From the NCBI RefSeq assembly GCF_000972785.3, contig NZ_CP011253.3, positions 3,534,001-3,598,000 of the forward strand: a stretch of 64,000 bases of DNA, given 5' to 3'. This stretch comes from Pandoraea oxalativorans (GTDB taxonomy: Bacteria > Pseudomonadota > Gammaproteobacteria > Burkholderiales > Burkholderiaceae). The notes below the pieces were generated by a model. That model ran no database searches. It was given only the letters and a program-made list of their open reading frames with translations, and was not told the DNA's origin. Shown one piece after another: positions 23,936 through 30,626 of the stretch. Numbering within the stretch: position 1 is the first letter of the stretch; every line of letters begins with the position of its first letter. Both the position numbers and the translations under genes were made by a program.

Positions 23936-24014
23936 GAATGGGGCTCCTTGTGATGACGTCCCGGGGGCAGGTTGCCGGATGAGCAGATCGGTGGAAACAC
24001 GAGCGTCTTCACGG

Positions 24015-24042
24015 TAAAACACATCCGCGCCGCCCTTATTCC
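24015..24042 (-). promoter_or_regulatory. candidate ECF promoter for the catalase-b561 genes
   Basis: On the minus strand GGAATAA (24036-24042) is followed after 14 bases by TGTTTTA (24015-24021). This resembles ECF -35/-10 elements and nearly matches the motif pair that faces the sigma gene on the other strand. The catalase start lies 80 bases downstream. Confidence 0.6.
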
Positions 24043-24071
24043 GTCGTCGCCGGTTTTATTTTCGTTTTCAT

Positions 24072-24097
24072 GGAATAAGCAGGCAGATACGCGTGTT
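24072..24097 (+). promoter_or_regulatory. candidate ECF promoter (autoregulation of the sigma gene)
   Basis: GGAATAA (24072-24078) is followed after 15 bases by TGTT (24094-24097). The ECF sigma start codon lies 42 bases on. The shared GGAATAA...TGTT pattern on both sides of this intergenic region suggests that the sigma drives its own gene and the catalase. Confidence 0.6.
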
Positions 24098-24139
24098 GAC
24101 CCGTTATGGCACGGCTCACCGCATTCGATCTCTGACGGC

Positions 24140-24703
24140 ATGGATATTCGCGACCAGCTCTATCATCACGTCCCGCGTCTGCGGCGGTATGCCCGCGCGC
24201 TCACGGGCAATACCGAGCTGGCCGACGACCTGGTGCAGGACACCCTGGAGCGCGCCCTCTCCCGCCACACGATGTTCGAAGCGGGCACGGACGCCCGCGC
24301 ATGGCTCTTCACCATCATGCACAACCTGTTTCTCAATCAGCAGCGCCGCGCGCCCGCGCAGGCGGCCCATGTCTCGCTGGACGAAACCGACCTCATCGAG
24401 CGCGACGTCGGTCATGCGTGCGTCCGGACGACGACGCCCGACCCCGCCCGCCGTCTCGAAATCCGCGATCTCGACGAGGCGCTGCGCCATCTCCCCGACG
24501 AGCAGCGGGCCGTCGTCCTGCTCGTGGGTCTGGAAGACATGAGCTATGCGGATGTCGCCACCACGTTGCGCGTGCCGATCGGCACCGTGATGTCGCGGTT
24601 GTCGCGCGCTCGGCAACGGCTGCGCGATCTTATGGCTGGCGAAATGACGTCCGGGCCGTCCGCGAAAACTGGACCGTCAGCCAAACTCAAGGTGGTGCGA
24701 TGA
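24140..24703 (+). CDS. ECF-type RNA polymerase sigma factor
   Basis: The product is 187 residues from the ATG at 24140. Region 2 is ARALTGNTELADDLVQDTLE with AWLFTIMHNLFLNQQRR. Region 4 is RAVVLLVGLEDMSYADVATT followed by LRVPIGTVMSRLSRARQRLR. Its stop overlaps the anti-sigma start (ATGA). With the divergent catalase and b561 genes it forms an apparent oxidative or envelope-stress module. It is related to the ECF sigma at 1338-1901 but has its own promoter motif. Confidence 0.92.
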   Translation: MDIRDQLYHHVPRLRRYARALTGNTELADDLVQDTLERALSRHTMFEAGTDARAWLFTIMHNLFLNQQRRAPAQAAHVSLDETDLIERDVGHACVRTTTPDPARRLEIRDLDEALRHLPDEQRAVVLLVGLEDMSYADVATTLRVPIGTVMSRLSRARQRLRDLMAGEMTSGPSAKTGPSAKLKVVR

Positions 24704-25560
24704 ACGAACCCAACCGCCCTATCGACGACAACGAACTGCACGCGTACGTCGACGGAGAATTGCCCCCGCAGCGTCGTGCAGAACTGGACAACGCCCTCGC
24801 CACCGACCCGGCACTCGCGGCGGCCGTGAGCGAACTCGTCGCCCTGCGCCGCGCGCTGCACGAGCGCTACGACGATGTGCTGGACGAACCGGTACCGCCC
24901 CGGCTGCAACGTCCGGCAGACGTGCAGGCGCAGATGTCGCGCAGCAAAACCGCCGCCAACTGGCCCCGGTTCGCCGGGCTGGCCGCCGCGCTGGTCGTCG
25001 GCATCGGCATCGGCGTTCAGGGCAACCGCCTCTGGTCGGCGCGGCAGACCCATGCGTCCGCCATCGCCATGCGCGAGGCTGCGCCGTCGCGTACCGCCGC
25101 CACCGACGGCGCAGCACGGTTCGCCCGACGCGCCGCCATCGCGCACGTCGTCTACATGCCCGAGATTCAGCGGCCTTCGGGCATGGATGGGGCGTCCGAA
25201 GCCCGTTTCTCCAGGTGGATCGCAAGCCGTCTGGAAACCGCCGCGCAAGCGCCGGACCTGTCCTCGCGGGGCTTCCACCTGAGCGGCGGGCGTGTGCTGC
25301 CCGACAGCGATGAACACGTCGTGCAGTACATGTATCGCAACGACGCGGGCGAGCGCGTGACCGTCTGCATCTCACCGGTCGGTGTCGAAGGACAGCCCGC
25401 CGCGTTCCGATTCTATGAGGACGGCCCGGTCAGGGTTTTCTACTGGGTCGACAAGACGTTCGGCTATGCGATCTCGGGCGGCATCGACCGCGCGACGCTG
25501 ACGGGCCTGTCGCAGGACGTCTACGCCGCGCTGGAGGCAGGTGGGACGGGTAAACGTTAG
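24700..25560 (+). CDS. membrane-anchored anti-sigma factor
   Basis: The product is 286 residues. The N-terminal DNELHAYVDGELPPQRRAEL and EPVPPRLQRP are the usual anti-sigma (RsiW/ChrR-like) helices, though no zinc motif is present. One membrane helix (FAGLAAALVVGIGIGVQGN, about residues 88-106) is followed by a periplasmic domain with HVVQYMYRNDAGERVTVCIS and FYWVDKTFGYAISGG. It would hold the sigma at the membrane until an extracytoplasmic signal arrives. Same arrangement as the pair at the left end of the window. Confidence 0.88.
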   Translation: MNEPNRPIDDNELHAYVDGELPPQRRAELDNALATDPALAAAVSELVALRRALHERYDDVLDEPVPPRLQRPADVQAQMSRSKTAANWPRFAGLAAALVVGIGIGVQGNRLWSARQTHASAIAMREAAPSRTAATDGAARFARRAAIAHVVYMPEIQRPSGMDGASEARFSRWIASRLETAAQAPDLSSRGFHLSGGRVLPDSDEHVVQYMYRNDAGERVTVCISPVGVEGQPAAFRFYEDGPVRVFYWVDKTFGYAISGGIDRATLTGLSQDVYAALEAGGTGKR

Positions 25561-25604
25561 TTCCTCCCAGCAATAGAGAAGGTGGCAAACGCTCCTAATC
25601 GTGC

Positions 25605-25667
25605 GTTTTTGTCGGGCACTACCATGACTTCACCGTGAACAGTGTTTGCGGGCAGTCAGACAAAAAC
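25605..25667 (+). promoter_or_regulatory. inverted repeat in the acetamidase leader
   Basis: GTTTTTGTC (25605-25613) and GACAAAAAC (25659-25667) could pair as a 9-bp stem closing a 45-base loop that contains further short complementary segments (CACT/AGTG). The right arm ends five bases before the AGGAG ribosome site of the acetamidase gene. It may be a structured leader or an operator; I recognise no known riboswitch. Confidence 0.35.
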
Positions 25668-25682
25668 TCTAGGAGACATGGC

Positions 25683-26711
25683 ATGCTTCACGACCTCCCC
25701 GCACGGCCCGACACGGTGCACTGGGGCTACTTCAACGCGACGCACCCCCCCGCCCTGACCATCAAGAGCGGCGATTTCATTCGCGCCGAAGCGGTCACCC
25801 ATCATGCGGGCGACGCGCCCGACCTGATGATGGACGACGCCGTACGCGCCATCTACGACAAGATTCCCCACGAAGACCGCAACCCGGGCGTGCACATCAT
25901 GACCGGCCCGATCTACGTGGAAGGCGCGAAGCCGGGCGACATGCTCGAAGTGCGCTATCTGCAGATGATTCCGCGCTTTCGCTTCGGCGCGAACGTCGCC
26001 GCACACTGGGGGCAGCTCTACGACGACTTCCAGAAGGAGCGTGTGACCATCTACGAACTCGACAACAGTTCGAACACCGCGCACGCCCTGTTCGCGTTCG
26101 ACTATCCGGGCAAGCTGACCACGCCGGGCAAGGTTGTGGACCATCGCGAATGCTGCAAGCAGCCTGCGCTCGCCGGTGTGCGGGTGCCCGTACGTCCCCA
26201 CCTCGGCACGGCGGGTGTCGCGCCCGACGCGCAAGGCCGCGTGAGTACGGTCGAGCCGGGGCTGCATGGCGGCAACATCGACAACTGGCGTATCGGTGCC
26301 GGGGCGACCATGTACTACAAGGTGCAGGTCGACGGTGGCCTCTTCTCCATCGGCGACCCGCACATCTCGCAGGGCGACGGCGAAATCAGCGGCACGGCCA
26401 TCGAGGCGTCGCTCAACGTGCTGTTCCAGGTGGTGCTGCGCAAGGACTTCGAATTCCCGTCGCCGCTGCTGGAGACGCCCGACTGCTGGATCGTTCACGG
26501 CTTCCATCAGGATCTGGACGAAGCGGGCAAGAACGCCGCACGCGACATGATCAAGCTGCTCACCGAGCAACAGGGCCTCTCGCGCGACGACGCCTACTCG
26601 CTCATGAGCGTGGCGGCCGATTTCGGCGTAACGCAGGTCGTCGACGGCACGCAAGGGGTGCACTGCACCATGCCGCGCGGCATGTTCCCGCCCAAGTCGT
26701 CCAAGGCCTGA
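25683..26711 (+). CDS. acetamidase/formamidase family protein
   Basis: The product is 342 residues from the ATG at 25683 (AGGAG upstream). It matches the FmdA/AmdA family: TVHWGYFNATHPPALTIKSG, NPGVHIMTGPIYVEGAKPGD, GNIDNWRIGAG, FSIGDPHISQGDGEISGTAI, and VAADFGVTQVVDGTQGVHCT. These enzymes hydrolyse formamide, acetamide or related short amides to ammonia and the acid in the cytoplasm. Family members vary in substrate. It is followed by two XapX genes and by an AraC-acetamidase fusion whose C-terminal half is a paralogue of this protein. Confidence 0.9.
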   Translation: MLHDLPARPDTVHWGYFNATHPPALTIKSGDFIRAEAVTHHAGDAPDLMMDDAVRAIYDKIPHEDRNPGVHIMTGPIYVEGAKPGDMLEVRYLQMIPRFRFGANVAAHWGQLYDDFQKERVTIYELDNSSNTAHALFAFDYPGKLTTPGKVVDHRECCKQPALAGVRVPVRPHLGTAGVAPDAQGRVSTVEPGLHGGNIDNWRIGAGATMYYKVQVDGGLFSIGDPHISQGDGEISGTAIEASLNVLFQVVLRKDFEFPSPLLETPDCWIVHGFHQDLDEAGKNAARDMIKLLTEQQGLSRDDAYSLMSVAADFGVTQVVDGTQGVHCTMPRGMFPPKSSKA

Positions 26712-26805: not shown

Positions 26806-27027
26806 ATGCAATACGTCTATGTCGGGCGCAACGAGCTTGTCGCCCTGATCGTCGGTCTGGTCACGGGCACACTGTACTCGTGGCTCAACCTGCCGATTCC
26901 CGCCCCGAATGTGCTCGGCGGCATCTTCGCCATCATCTTCACGTACCTCGGCTATCTGATCGTGAATCTGTGGCGTCGCTCAGTCACGTTCGGACGTCCG
27001 CCCGCCGAAGTCTCGGCACGGCGCTGA
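26806..27027 (+). CDS. XapX (DUF1427) small membrane protein
   Basis: The product is 73 residues from the ATG at 26806, with GGAG upstream. Two membrane helices surround the family signature (ALIVGLVTGTLYSWLNLPIP, then APNVLGGIFAIIFTYLGYLI). The PxPAPNxLGGI motif defines XapX, a family of unknown function named for occurrence with xanthosine genes. Small size and tandem copies suggest an oligomeric membrane pore or a subunit of one. Placement between two acetamidase genes hints at amide or ammonia traffic, but this is speculation. Confidence 0.85.
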   Translation: MQYVYVGRNELVALIVGLVTGTLYSWLNLPIPAPNVLGGIFAIIFTYLGYLIVNLWRRSVTFGRPPAEVSARR

Positions 27028-27072: not shown

Positions 27073-27264
27073 ATGGTAGAAATCACGCTTGGCGCGACGG
27101 AGTTGCAGGCGGCCGCCGTCGGACTCGTGACCGGAGTGCTTTACACCGGCGTACGCGCGCCGATTCCGGCCCCTAACGTCCTCGGCGGCATCTTCGCCAT
27201 TGTCGGCACGTTCATCGGCTTCGCCTTCGTGGCGGCGATGCGCGGGCAGTTGCACTTTGGCTGA
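27073..27264 (+). CDS. XapX (DUF1427) small membrane protein, second copy
   Basis: The product is 63 residues with a GAGGAGG ribosome site. It is a paralogue of the preceding gene: VGLVTGVLYTGVRAPIPAPN, then LGGIFAIVGTFIGFAFVAAM. It keeps the PIPAPNVLGGIFAI signature but has a shorter C-terminus. Two adjacent, non-identical XapX genes suggest a hetero-oligomeric membrane complex. Function unknown. Confidence 0.85.
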   Translation: MVEITLGATELQAAAVGLVTGVLYTGVRAPIPAPNVLGGIFAIVGTFIGFAFVAAMRGQLHFG

Positions 27265-27287: not shown

Positions 27288-27323
27288 CCCCGTCGCCGCG
27301 CGTCGACATGCGCTGCGACGGGG
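27288..27323 (+). other. 9-bp perfect hairpin between xapX and the fusion gene
   Basis: CCCCGTCGC (27288-27296) and GCGACGGGG (27315-27323) pair around an 18-base loop. No T tract follows, so it is a weak terminator or an mRNA processing or regulatory element about 30 bases before the start of the fusion gene. Confidence 0.45.
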
Positions 27324-27356
27324 TGTCGTCGTTGTCATTTCTGATGGAGGCAGGAC

Positions 27357-29735
27357 GTGGATCGTGCGCATTTCTCAACGGAATCCTATGCCCAGGACCA
27401 GCGCGGGCCGGCATGGCAGGCGCGCCTGCTCGACGCCCGTCTGCACTTTCGTCCACCACCGGCCGGAGAACCGCTGCACGGCACGTTGCTTACGCATCGC
27501 ACGCCCGCCGGTATCGAACTCTCGGTGATCTCGTCCACGCCGCAAACCGTATCGGCACGCGCAGGCGGTGAGCGCGGCTTTCTGCTCGTCATGCTGCTCG
27601 ACGGGCAGATGACATTGGCCAGCGCGGGCGCACTCGATGGCGAGACGCTGGCCGCTGGCGACATCGCGTGCATTCCGGGCGCGCAGAGCGCCGACCTCAT
27701 CGCCCGCACGCCGTTCCGACTGATCTCGGTACACGTGCGTCAAACGCTGATCGCACCGCGACTGGGCAGCGCGCCGCCGGTGCAGACGTGCAAGTTGCCC
27801 GACAGCGTGTCGCGTCTGTTCGGCGCGCTGCTCGGCGGACTCGCCATGCAACTCGACGCGATGCAAGATGCCGACCCGCACGCGCTCGAACCCATCGAGA
27901 ATGTGATTCTCGAATGTCTTGCCTCGGCGCTCGCGGCGGCCAAGCCGCAGGCAGCACCCCATCTCTCGAGCTCGCGCGGCATCGTGTTCACGCGCATCTG
28001 TCACCGCATTCAGGCACGTCTGGCCGAGCCGGATCTGTCGCTGTGCGCCATCGCAAAAGACGAACATGTATCGGATCGCTATCTGCGCAAGCTATTCGAA
28101 GACGCGGGTCAGAGCTTCTCGTCCTACCTGCGCAACAGTCGTTTGCAGCGTTGTCACGCGGACTTGCAGAATCCGGCGTACGACCAGTTGTCGGTGTCGG
28201 ACATCTGCTACCGCTGGGGCTTCAACGATCCGTCTTACTTCAGTCAGGCATTTCGCGAGCGGTTCGGCCTATCGCCCAAGGCCAGCCGCGATCAGGCACT
28301 GCGTTCCCGTGCGCTGCCGGAACGGGCGCGCATCTCGCGCGGACACCCCGACGTGCCTGCCGGGCTGGCGCATCGAACGAACATCGGTCCGACCGCGGCG
28401 ATGGCCCTCACGGAACACGACGCGACGCCCGGCAGCGCCGCTCGTCCCCCGCTGCCGCATGACGCCGGACAGCACCACTATCTGCGCGCGACGCGCGACT
28501 CGGTGCATTGGGGGTATCTCAGTCACGATCTTGCGCCAGTGCTCACCGTCGCCTCGGGCGACACCGTGACCGTCGAAACGCTGACGCAGCATGCGACCGA
28601 CGACTGGGAACGCATGATTCGGGGCGATCCGGGCGCGGAGAGTGTGTTTCACTGGACGGCGACGCAGAAGAACGTGGACCGGCGCGGCGCGGGACCGATG
28701 GACGCCTCCGTCTACGGACGCGGCGCGGGCGAAGGCTTCGGCGTGCATATCTGTACCGGCCCCATCGCCATTGAAGACGCCATGCCGGGCGACGTACTCG
28801 AAGTCCGCATTCTCGATCTGCTTCCCCGACCGAGCGCGAATCCCGAGTTCGCGGGCAAGGCGTTCGGCAGCCACGCATCGACGTGGTGGGGCTTTCACTA
28901 TCAGGACATGCTCACGTTGCCGCGCGAGCGAGAAGTCGTGACGGTGTTCGAGATCGATTGCCATGACCACCGTGACGATGCGGAAGAAGGCACCGATGTA
29001 GCCCGCGCCATCTACAGCTTTCGCTGGACGCCGCAACAAGACCCCTTCGGCGTGGTTCATCCGACTATCGACTATCCCGGCGTGCCGGTCGATCACACCC
29101 GTATCACCAAGAATTTCCGGACGCTGAAGAACGTCGAGATTCCGCTGCGCCCGCACTTCGGCGTGATGGCCGTCGCGCCTGCGCAGGACGGTCTGATCGA
29201 TTCGATTCCGCCGTCGAGCTACGCGGGCAACCTCGATAACTGGCGCGTGACGCGCGGTGCGAGCGTCTTTCTGAAAGTCGCGGTGCCGGGCGCACTGCTC
29301 TCCATTGGCGACCCGCACGCCTCGCAGGGCGACGCCGAACTCGGTGGCACCGCCATCGAATGCTCGCTCACGGGCAACATTCAACTGGTGCTGCACAAGA
29401 AGGCGGCCATCGAGGCACACGCACCGTACGCCGATCTGACCTATCCGCTGGTCGAGACGCCGACGCAATGGATCATCCACGGCTTCAGTTCGCCCAACCA
29501 TCTGGCCGAGCTGGGGCAGAAAGCGCAGAGCCAGATCTATATGAAATCGACGCTCGACAGCGCCTTGCGCGACGCCTTCCTCAAGGCGCGTCGCTTTCTC
29601 ATGCAGGTCAAGCGCCTGACCGAAGACGAAGCCACCACGATTCTTTCGGTGTCCGTCGATTTCGGGGTGACGCAGGTCGTCAACGGCAACTGGGGCGTGC
29701 ACGCGATTATTCGCAAGGGGATGTTCAACGACTGA
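27357..29735 (+). CDS. AraC-family regulator fused to an acetamidase/formamidase
   Basis: The product is 792 residues from a GTG at 27357 (GGAGG upstream), one uninterrupted frame. Residues about 1-190 are an AraC_binding_2-like sensor (FLLVMLLDGQMTLASAGALD). Residues about 205-315 are a complete AraC DNA-binding domain: first helix-turn-helix LSLCAIAKDEHVSDRYLRKL, second SVSDICYRWGFNDPSYFSQA with FRERFGLSPKASR. A ~60-residue linker is followed, from about 375, by a full acetamidase/formamidase: DSVHWGYLSHDLAPVLTVAS, GFGVHICTGPIAIEDAMPGD, LSIGDPHASQGDAELGGTAI, VSVDFGVTQVVNGNWGVHAI. Internal ATG at 28402 lacks a ribosome site. A DNA-binding regulator joined to a catabolic enzyme could sense amide by hydrolysing it. 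Either half could also act alone. Confidence 0.88.
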   Translation: MDRAHFSTESYAQDQRGPAWQARLLDARLHFRPPPAGEPLHGTLLTHRTPAGIELSVISSTPQTVSARAGGERGFLLVMLLDGQMTLASAGALDGETLAAGDIACIPGAQSADLIARTPFRLISVHVRQTLIAPRLGSAPPVQTCKLPDSVSRLFGALLGGLAMQLDAMQDADPHALEPIENVILECLASALAAAKPQAAPHLSSSRGIVFTRICHRIQARLAEPDLSLCAIAKDEHVSDRYLRKLFEDAGQSFSSYLRNSRLQRCHADLQNPAYDQLSVSDICYRWGFNDPSYFSQAFRERFGLSPKASRDQALRSRALPERARISRGHPDVPAGLAHRTNIGPTAAMALTEHDATPGSAARPPLPHDAGQHHYLRATRDSVHWGYLSHDLAPVLTVASGDTVTVETLTQHATDDWERMIRGDPGAESVFHWTATQKNVDRRGAGPMDASVYGRGAGEGFGVHICTGPIAIEDAMPGDVLEVRILDLLPRPSANPEFAGKAFGSHASTWWGFHYQDMLTLPREREVVTVFEIDCHDHRDDAEEGTDVARAIYSFRWTPQQDPFGVVHPTIDYPGVPVDHTRITKNFRTLKNVEIPLRPHFGVMAVAPAQDGLIDSIPPSSYAGNLDNWRVTRGASVFLKVAVPGALLSIGDPHASQGDAELGGTAIECSLTGNIQLVLHKKAAIEAHAPYADLTYPLVETPTQWIIHGFSSPNHLAELGQKAQSQIYMKSTLDSALRDAFLKARRFLMQVKRLTEDEATTILSVSVDFGVTQVVNGNWGVHAIIRKGMFND

Positions 29736-29792: not shown

Positions 29793-30626
29793 ATGAAACC
29801 CCAGACCCGACTGAGATACGCCGAACGCATGGAGCCTGTGCTCCGCTGGCTGGCCGACCATCCGGAAAACGACCCGGACCTGCACCATCTGGCCGAGCTG
29901 GCGTGTCTGTCGCCGTACCACTTTCATCGTGTCTACCGCGCGTTGCTCGGTGAGACGGTGAACAATTCGGTGCAGCGCATTCGCATGCACCGTGCGGCGA
30001 TCGCCCTGTCGGGCTCTGAGGACTCGATGCGCGTTGTGGCGTCGCGTGCCGGCTATGCGTCGGACGCTGCGTTCAACCGGGCCTTCGGTGCGTTCTTCGG
30101 CATCCCGCCGGGACGCTACCGCGACGCCCGCTCCGGACCCATCGATCCTCAGGAGCCCGCCATGTACCCGATCTCAGTCGAATCGTTTCCCGCCACCACC
30201 CTCGCCGTACTCCGTCACCAGGGCGACTATCAGGGCATCGGCCCCGTGTTCACGCGCGCCTTCATGCTCGCCGCTGCACAGGGCCTCGCTCACCCGGACG
30301 CTACCGGCTTCGGCGTCTACTTCGACGACCCGGAGCAGATCCCCGTCGCCCAATTGCGCTCGCTCGCGGGCATGTCGGTGCCCGCCGATGCGACGATCGG
30401 CGGCGATCTGGAGCGCTTCGAGATTCCCGCAGGCAGGTGCGCCATGCTGACGTACACCGGGCCGTACAACGAGATGAGCAAGCCTTATCAGTGGCTGTTC
30501 GCGCAGTGGCTGCCCGCCAGCGGGCTGGAGCCAGCCGACTTCCCGATGTTCGAGCAGTATCTCAACGATCCCCGCTCGACGCCTGCGGCGCAGCTTCAGA
30601 CCCGCATCTGTCTGCCGGTGAAGTAA
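29793..30626 (+). CDS. AraC-family regulator with GyrI-like effector domain
   Basis: The product is 277 residues. An N-terminal AraC DNA-binding domain (LHHLAELACLSPYHFHRVYR, then RMHRAAIALSGSEDSMRVVA and GYASDAAFNRAFGAFFGIPP) is followed by a GyrI-like/SbmC ligand domain (YPISVESFPATTLAVLRHQG, FEIPAGRCAMLTYTGPYNEM, AQLQTRICLPV). This is the Rob/BmrR-type layout, which binds hydrophobic small molecules. It starts 57 bases after the fusion gene. Its 3' end overlaps the convergent selU gene by 65 bases. Confidence 0.9.
   Translation: MKPQTRLRYAERMEPVLRWLADHPENDPDLHHLAELACLSPYHFHRVYRALLGETVNNSVQRIRMHRAAIALSGSEDSMRVVASRAGYASDAAFNRAFGAFFGIPPGRYRDARSGPIDPQEPAMYPISVESFPATTLAVLRHQGDYQGIGPVFTRAFMLAAAQGLAHPDATGFGVYFDDPEQIPVAQLRSLAGMSVPADATIGGDLERFEIPAGRCAMLTYTGPYNEMSKPYQWLFAQWLPASGLEPADFPMFEQYLNDPRSTPAAQLQTRICLPVK

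Follow-up and report, generated by a model that had tools for sequence, protein, structure and literature searches.

A conserved single-frame fusion of an AraC-type regulator and an acetamidase/formamidase in Pandoraea oxalativorans and its relatives, a possible trigger-enzyme-like activator

Is the long reading frame that joins an AraC-type transcription factor to an acetamidase/formamidase in Pandoraea oxalativorans a genuine gene, and what might an enzyme do when attached to a regulator? We addressed this in the window, the whole 64,000-nucleotide stretch of contig NZ_CP011253.3 in which the frame lies. The fused gene (27357..29735, + strand) was delimited by translation, homologue search, Pfam and a comparison of 80 loci. 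It has 792 codons without an internal stop, begins with GTG and carries GGAGG 6 nt 5' of that codon. Residues 1–205 (27357..27971, +) form a FeaR/XylS-like N-terminal sensor/dimerisation region, recognised by the FeaR model and by a Foldseek match to CuxR (5nla); the likeness of the regulator half to XylS is presumed. The NCBIfam FeaR equivalog NF007243 spans residues 18–314 at 124.5 bits, below its 199-bit cut-off. The domain PF14525 is carried by 104 of the 120 best homologues listed (precomputed annotation, counted by hand) and was not reported for the window's fused protein in a Pfam scan. The AraC double helix-turn-helix follows at residues 206–315 (27972..28301, +), supported by dN/dS and by HTH_18 (PF12833, residues 232–312), whose 68.5 bits against a cut-off of 33.6 place the protein among AraC/XylS-domain regulators.

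The C-terminal half, residues 373–792 (28473..29732, +), is an FmdA/AmdA amidase domain by Pfam (PF03069, 87.8 bits against a cut-off of 27), by structure and by its polar core. The nearest solved structure for residues 366–790 is 3b9t (Foldseek TM-score by target 0.83), which bears out the original prediction of a full enzyme domain; the score against the formamidase FmdA equivalog NF045496 was 50.8 bits, with a cut-off of 500. Foldseek matches of the regulator half (CuxR, ToxT and Rns-type AraC proteins) had lower TM-scores than that to 3b9t. Between the halves lies a linker, residues 316–372 (28302..28472, +), variable in length and sequence; predicted at about 60 residues, it measures about 55, mostly predicted to be disordered. 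An AlphaFold2 model built from 64 sequences (mean pLDDT 74.9, pTM 0.53) has two folded regions, several low-confidence amidase loops and a disordered stretch at residues 320–368 (pLDDT below 50), and at this pTM it suggests no firm packing of the domains. Within the linker, alignment of the fused loci revealed an RGxP motif (RGHP, residues 328–331; 28338..28349, +), present in 82 of 83 fused loci, the single miss being the truncated contig L112, and absent from the C-termini of the unfused regulators compared, except the decayed fusion L124. A reading as an AT-hook was set aside, as just 16 of the 82 motifs are RGRP.

Homologues uphold the fusion itself. Both halves occur in all 120 homologues listed, the top-ranking of 2943 found, at lengths of 743–880 aa; the automatic label ‘acetamidase/formamidase/AraC-like DNA-binding protein’ is already in use in databases. 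A single-frame fusion is present at all 80 named loci compared, which were the 80 best among 543 relatives and are thereby weighted towards full-length matches; one of them, L112, is missing its start. Named fused loci come from betaproteobacterial Pandoraea, Cupriavidus, Paraburkholderia, Caballeronia and Comamonadaceae, from Alphaproteobacteria (Parvibaculum and Rhodospirillales MAGs) and from Gammaproteobacteria (Aliiglaciecola isolates and one Rhodanobacter MAG). Locus counts throughout are counts of related sequences, not of independent events. By hand tally, 59 of 398 host-family genomes hold a single-frame fusion, including 16 of the 32 genomes of the window's genus. A class-wide search of 369 genomes returned the window's own genome and one other match, an unfused amidase, so that the fusion occurred in none of the 368 other genomes of that sample. 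The fusion is sparse outside the host family; it is not a one-off and forms one conserved family.

Unfused relatives of the regulator are few: three matches in one search, together with unfused matches among host-family genomes. One of the three, P0241, was rejected as unfused, as the linker and amidase start are present at its end before the sequence diverges; it was excluded as an apparent broken fusion from the second of two trees of the AraC half. The first version (99 rows) required three changes between fused and unfused labels, and the second (92 rows, without P0241, L112, L116, L106, L122, L135 and L137) required two; L124 was in neither. An amidase tree was built with 8 of the 45 short rows, without the two canonical formamidases or any row of at most 300 residues; in it the fused rows needed two label changes and were separate from 38 adjacent long rows. 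A single fused clade was not rejected on the second AraC tree (p-AU 0.457), a result that is compatible with one origin and does not prove it.

The fused enzyme had been described as a copy of the neighbouring acetamidase, a description that does not survive comparison, since its place is in a long 3b9t-like subfamily and its identity to the short enzyme is about 45%. With that identity and the separate position of the fused rows in the amidase tree, a recent duplication of the neighbour was rejected. Its fold and conserved core are the same as in the rest of the FmdA/AmdA 3b9t subfamily. Residues E407, H464, D479, H600, N625, D627, D652, H654, Q657, D659, E661 and E668 are unchanged in all 84 fused rows and H412 in 83, and alignment indicates that this polar core is common to unfused long, short and canonical amidases. 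As judged by alignment, it is apparently intact. The relatives differ at the N-terminus, where 80 of the 119 listed have a Tat-like pattern (amidase-only search; 18 without, and 21 fused, cut or unmatched) and the fusion has its regulator. They differ also at two fusion-specific residues found by residue alignment. Position 411 (28587..28589, +), adjoining the conserved H412, is Gln in 80 of the 84 fused rows, but His in all 49 long unfused rows (one locus counted twice) and all 45 short ones; position 639 (29271..29273, +) is Leu in all 84 fused rows, but Tyr in 48 of the 49 long unfused rows (one locus again counted twice) and in 45 of 45 short ones. Together, Q411 and L639 could signal altered or weak catalysis. 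Both aligned canonical formamidases have Lys at 411, so His at this position is not required across the family.

Selection was compared across the protein by the Nei–Gojobori method. In eight Pandoraea comparisons dN/dS was 0.07–0.22 for the sensor, 0.01–0.09 for the helix-turn-helix and 0.04–0.08 for the amidase; the linker gave 0.13–0.62 in the six pairs that allowed the calculation. Two more distant loci, L046 and L047, gave higher values of 0.50–0.58, 0.21–0.24 and 0.14–0.16 for sensor, helix-turn-helix and amidase, with synonymous sites near saturation. These ratios indicate that purifying selection is acting on the regulator and amidase halves alike.

The fused gene stands last in a co-directional row, acetamidase, XapX, XapX, fusion. 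The separate short acetamidase/formamidase (342 aa; 25683..26711, +; PF03069, 107.7 bits) had been correctly predicted. It is followed by a 73-aa XapX protein (26806..27027, +; TIGR03510, 67.5 bits against a cut-off of 27.8) and a second of 63 aa (27073..27264, +; 54.8 bits against 27.8), the latter without a Pfam match. A second amidase lies near the fusion in 74 of 80 loci, short in 41 (more than 60% identical to the window's short acetamidase), long in 33 and both in none; distant or partial amidase-like matches in nine loci were left out of this count. Neither type was found in the other six, L066, L074, L078, L106 and the short contigs L048 and L112. An amino-acid-type ABC binding protein gene adjoins a permease/ATPase in 36 of 80 loci, all outside the XapX type, a stricter recount after single-linkage clusters had merged other ABC transporters (48 loci); a RidA-like gene is found in 21 of 80. 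The ABC and RidA-like names rest on one representative each. In Aliiglaciecola (L110, L111) the genes around the cassette include RutA-like, RutB-like, Rieske oxygenase-like and DOPA-dioxygenase-like ones. Directly downstream of the fusion in the window is an AraC-type regulator with a GyrI-like binding domain (29793–30626), whose cluster recurs in six of 80 loci, those inspected being Pandoraea; upstream of the acetamidase are an ECF-like sigma factor gene and then a possible anti-sigma gene (23972–25560). Two more high-scoring FmdA_AmdA genes (L001, L002) lie elsewhere in the window's genome, far from the window.

Unfused members of the regulator's family also lie near the short amidase. At four loci an unfused AraC gene and a short amidase gene (66–69% identical) share a strand, separated by about 0.2 kb in L118 and L119 and about 1.1 kb in L120 and L132. 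Close short-amidase relatives (E≤1e-100) are present in 42 of 398 host-family genomes and, by hand comparison, all 42 also hold the fusion's AraC family, on a different contig in one of them (G256). Of the 32 genomes of the window's genus, 16 carry the pair and the other 16 lack both. This co-occurrence and the unfused pairs link the regulator to the amidase cassette. One genome (L132/G375) contains both an unfused AraC with short amidase and a fusion with long amidase. L124 contains short amidase and fusion together in decayed form, and L125–L128 have partial amidase matches alone.

We searched the 200 nt upstream of each fused gene for the sigma54 motif TGGCAC-N5-TTGC with GG and GC fixed. 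Among 62 non-XapX fused genes, 47 had a sigma54-like site with at most one mismatch and 59 with at most two, compared with 22 and 94 of 1660 stretches of 200 nt drawn at random from the same loci, and 11 and 73 of 1640 stretches of shuffled upstream DNA. At most one mismatch was seen in the 300 nt before none of the neighbouring amidases (0/40 short, 0/36 long) and before one of 43 binding-protein genes. In the 21 XapX-type loci no site with up to two mismatches preceded the fusion, and none was found before the fusion in the window; a sigma70-like promoter was likewise not found in the window region, where a weak terminator-like hairpin (27315–27332) lies between the second XapX gene and the fused gene. 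For the unfused relatives the best sites had one mismatch (L132) and two (L120), with none closer than 3 and 5 in L118 and L119. Mapped sigma54 sites share this -24/-12 form, and sigma54 requires an enhancer-binding activator (PMC3844500). The sites before most non-XapX fused genes suggest nitrogen control, and NtrC as the activator would be a guess. NtrC-like sites with at most three mismatches upstream of the sigma54-like promoters were weakly enriched (34/61 against 767/4453 tiles), and this enrichment was not used as support.

In the XapX-type loci, comparison pointed to a different element, the conserved 16-bp GGGTAAACGTTAGTTC (GGGTWWACGYTAGTTC; 25548..25563, +), a candidate operator 5' of the acetamidase. 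Besides the window, GGGTWWACGYTAGTTC is exact in 14 of 21 XapX-type loci (9 of 9 Pandoraea, 4 Paraburkholderia and Variovorax soli L083) and has 2–3 mismatches in three Cupriavidus loci (L047, L049, L105); it was not found with up to three mismatches in L048, L050, L051 and L116, of which L048 and L051 are cut-off contigs. It begins a block (25548..25634, +) that is near-invariant in an alignment of the window with eight Pandoraea loci, and the DNA farther upstream differs among Pandoraea loci. The exact element occurs once in the 6.5-Mb genome, at the window locus. A genome-wide GGGTWWACGYTAGTTC regulon was not found, with that one exact match and five matches in total at two mismatches against six for a reversed-pattern control. 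We infer that the fused regulator may bind the candidate element. Upstream of the short amidase in L053–L067, about 100 nt are strongly conserved in the 8 loci aligned and include a palindrome-like ACAAGCTTTTGT core. The sigma54-like promoters, the unfused relatives, the two XapX genes and the 25548–25563 element had no place in the original prediction.

How else might the locus be read? An error of assembly or frame is very improbable, and so is separate translation of two genes with an internal start. An in-frame ATG does exist at 28401, but no Shine-Dalgarno-like sequence precedes it by eye, its Met recurs in the three nearest Pandoraea loci only (L037, L038, L052), and we saw no conserved internal start with such a sequence. 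Split orthologues or an intervening stop, named originally as signs of error, are missing from the best 80 named loci, all of them one frame, and the single-frame fusions in 59 host-family genomes tell equally against an artefact. A more serious contender, though one we think rather doubtful, is that fusion merely co-produces the regulator and a second enzyme, the halves working independently with no feedback beyond ordinary substrate use. A linker little conserved besides RGxP and disordered in the model of the window's protein would suit it, as would the conservation of both regulator and amidase and the lack of firm domain packing. Yet the fusion survives great divergence with few unfused relatives found, and a regulator made at enzyme levels would be unusual.

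It is also conceivable, if unlikely, that the amidase half has become mainly a ligand-binding sensor or an oligomerisation module, leaving bulk hydrolysis to the neighbouring amidase. Fusion-specific Q411 and L639 and the presence of another amidase gene at 74 of the 80 loci favour such a change of function; it sits poorly with a polar core identical in 83–84 of 84 fused rows, with the low amidase dN/dS in Pandoraea and with Lys at position 411 in the two aligned canonical formamidases. Because the core is intact, the role first proposed for the fused enzyme, regulatory rather than bulk catalytic, is not established; it may have both.

The reading we prefer, with moderate confidence, is that the fusion is an activator resembling a trigger enzyme; it would switch on an amide-nitrogen cassette, and its amidase half likely uses up the inducer. 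The AraC half, a predicted activator, would sense an amide (or its product) and turn on the small cassette; the amidase half would hydrolyse the inducing amide, the signal would fall and the response would be limited, much as in the self-limiting sensor first envisaged. Coupling of the halves is here deduced from their fusion alone. Several observations count against this reading: the substitutions Q411 and L639, the higher dN/dS against L046 and L047, the lack of both the sigma54-like promoter and the ABC pair at XapX-type loci, and, in the window, no sigma70-like promoter but a weak hairpin before the fused gene. At most sampled non-XapX loci a sigma54-like promoter at the fused gene, absent at the neighbouring amidases, suggests a circuit of two steps: nitrogen shortage would act through sigma54 to produce the regulator-enzyme, and the amide would then activate the cassette. 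In the window's lineage, with the fusion last in its co-directional set, the likely target would be the 25548–25563 element, and activation there would raise the fusion and the inducer-consuming enzyme together. A bolder version, which we regard as improbable, makes the family an AraC trigger-enzyme class undescribed in the literature searched, spanning three proteobacterial classes, mostly made under sigma54-nitrogen control, activating the cassette and setting, by breakdown of the inducer, the moment at which it shuts itself off; its amidase half would pair physically with the neighbouring amidase (short or long, never both), and the complex would gate DNA binding.

Helix-turn-helix proteins with enzyme-derived domains include Ada, which carries a methyltransferase, and MocR, which has the fold of an aminotransferase; neither contains an amidase. 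FeaR, whose model covers residues 18–314 below its cut-off, resembles the regulator half, to which the fusion adds a 420-residue enzyme domain. The E. coli trigger enzymes PutA, BirA, NadR and PepA unite a metabolic enzyme and transcription control in one polypeptide, PutA repressing when proline is absent (PMC8249747), and PMC6978683 adds further enzyme-regulator examples. By domain content the fusion would be a predicted enzyme and a predicted regulator in one polypeptide; it differs from those E. coli proteins in combining an AraC-type regulator with an FmdA-type amidase, both activities being predicted. No account of an AraC-amidase fusion was found in the literature searched, whose coverage mostly excluded subscription papers, and the accessible portions of PMC13209695 and PMC10781810 do not mention AraC.

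AraC regulators usually sense small molecules through a dedicated domain. A conserved AraC lineage bearing an apparently intact enzyme for its likely inducer would be a compact, testable signal-consuming regulator. Outside the XapX type, the sigma54-like promoter before most fused genes and not before the neighbouring amidases makes a clear prediction of nitrogen control, and nature supplies variants for comparison: the fusion within a XapX operon, the fusion behind a sigma54-like promoter, and the unfused form. The fusion would likely couple control of amide nitrogen use with enzymatic removal of the signal.
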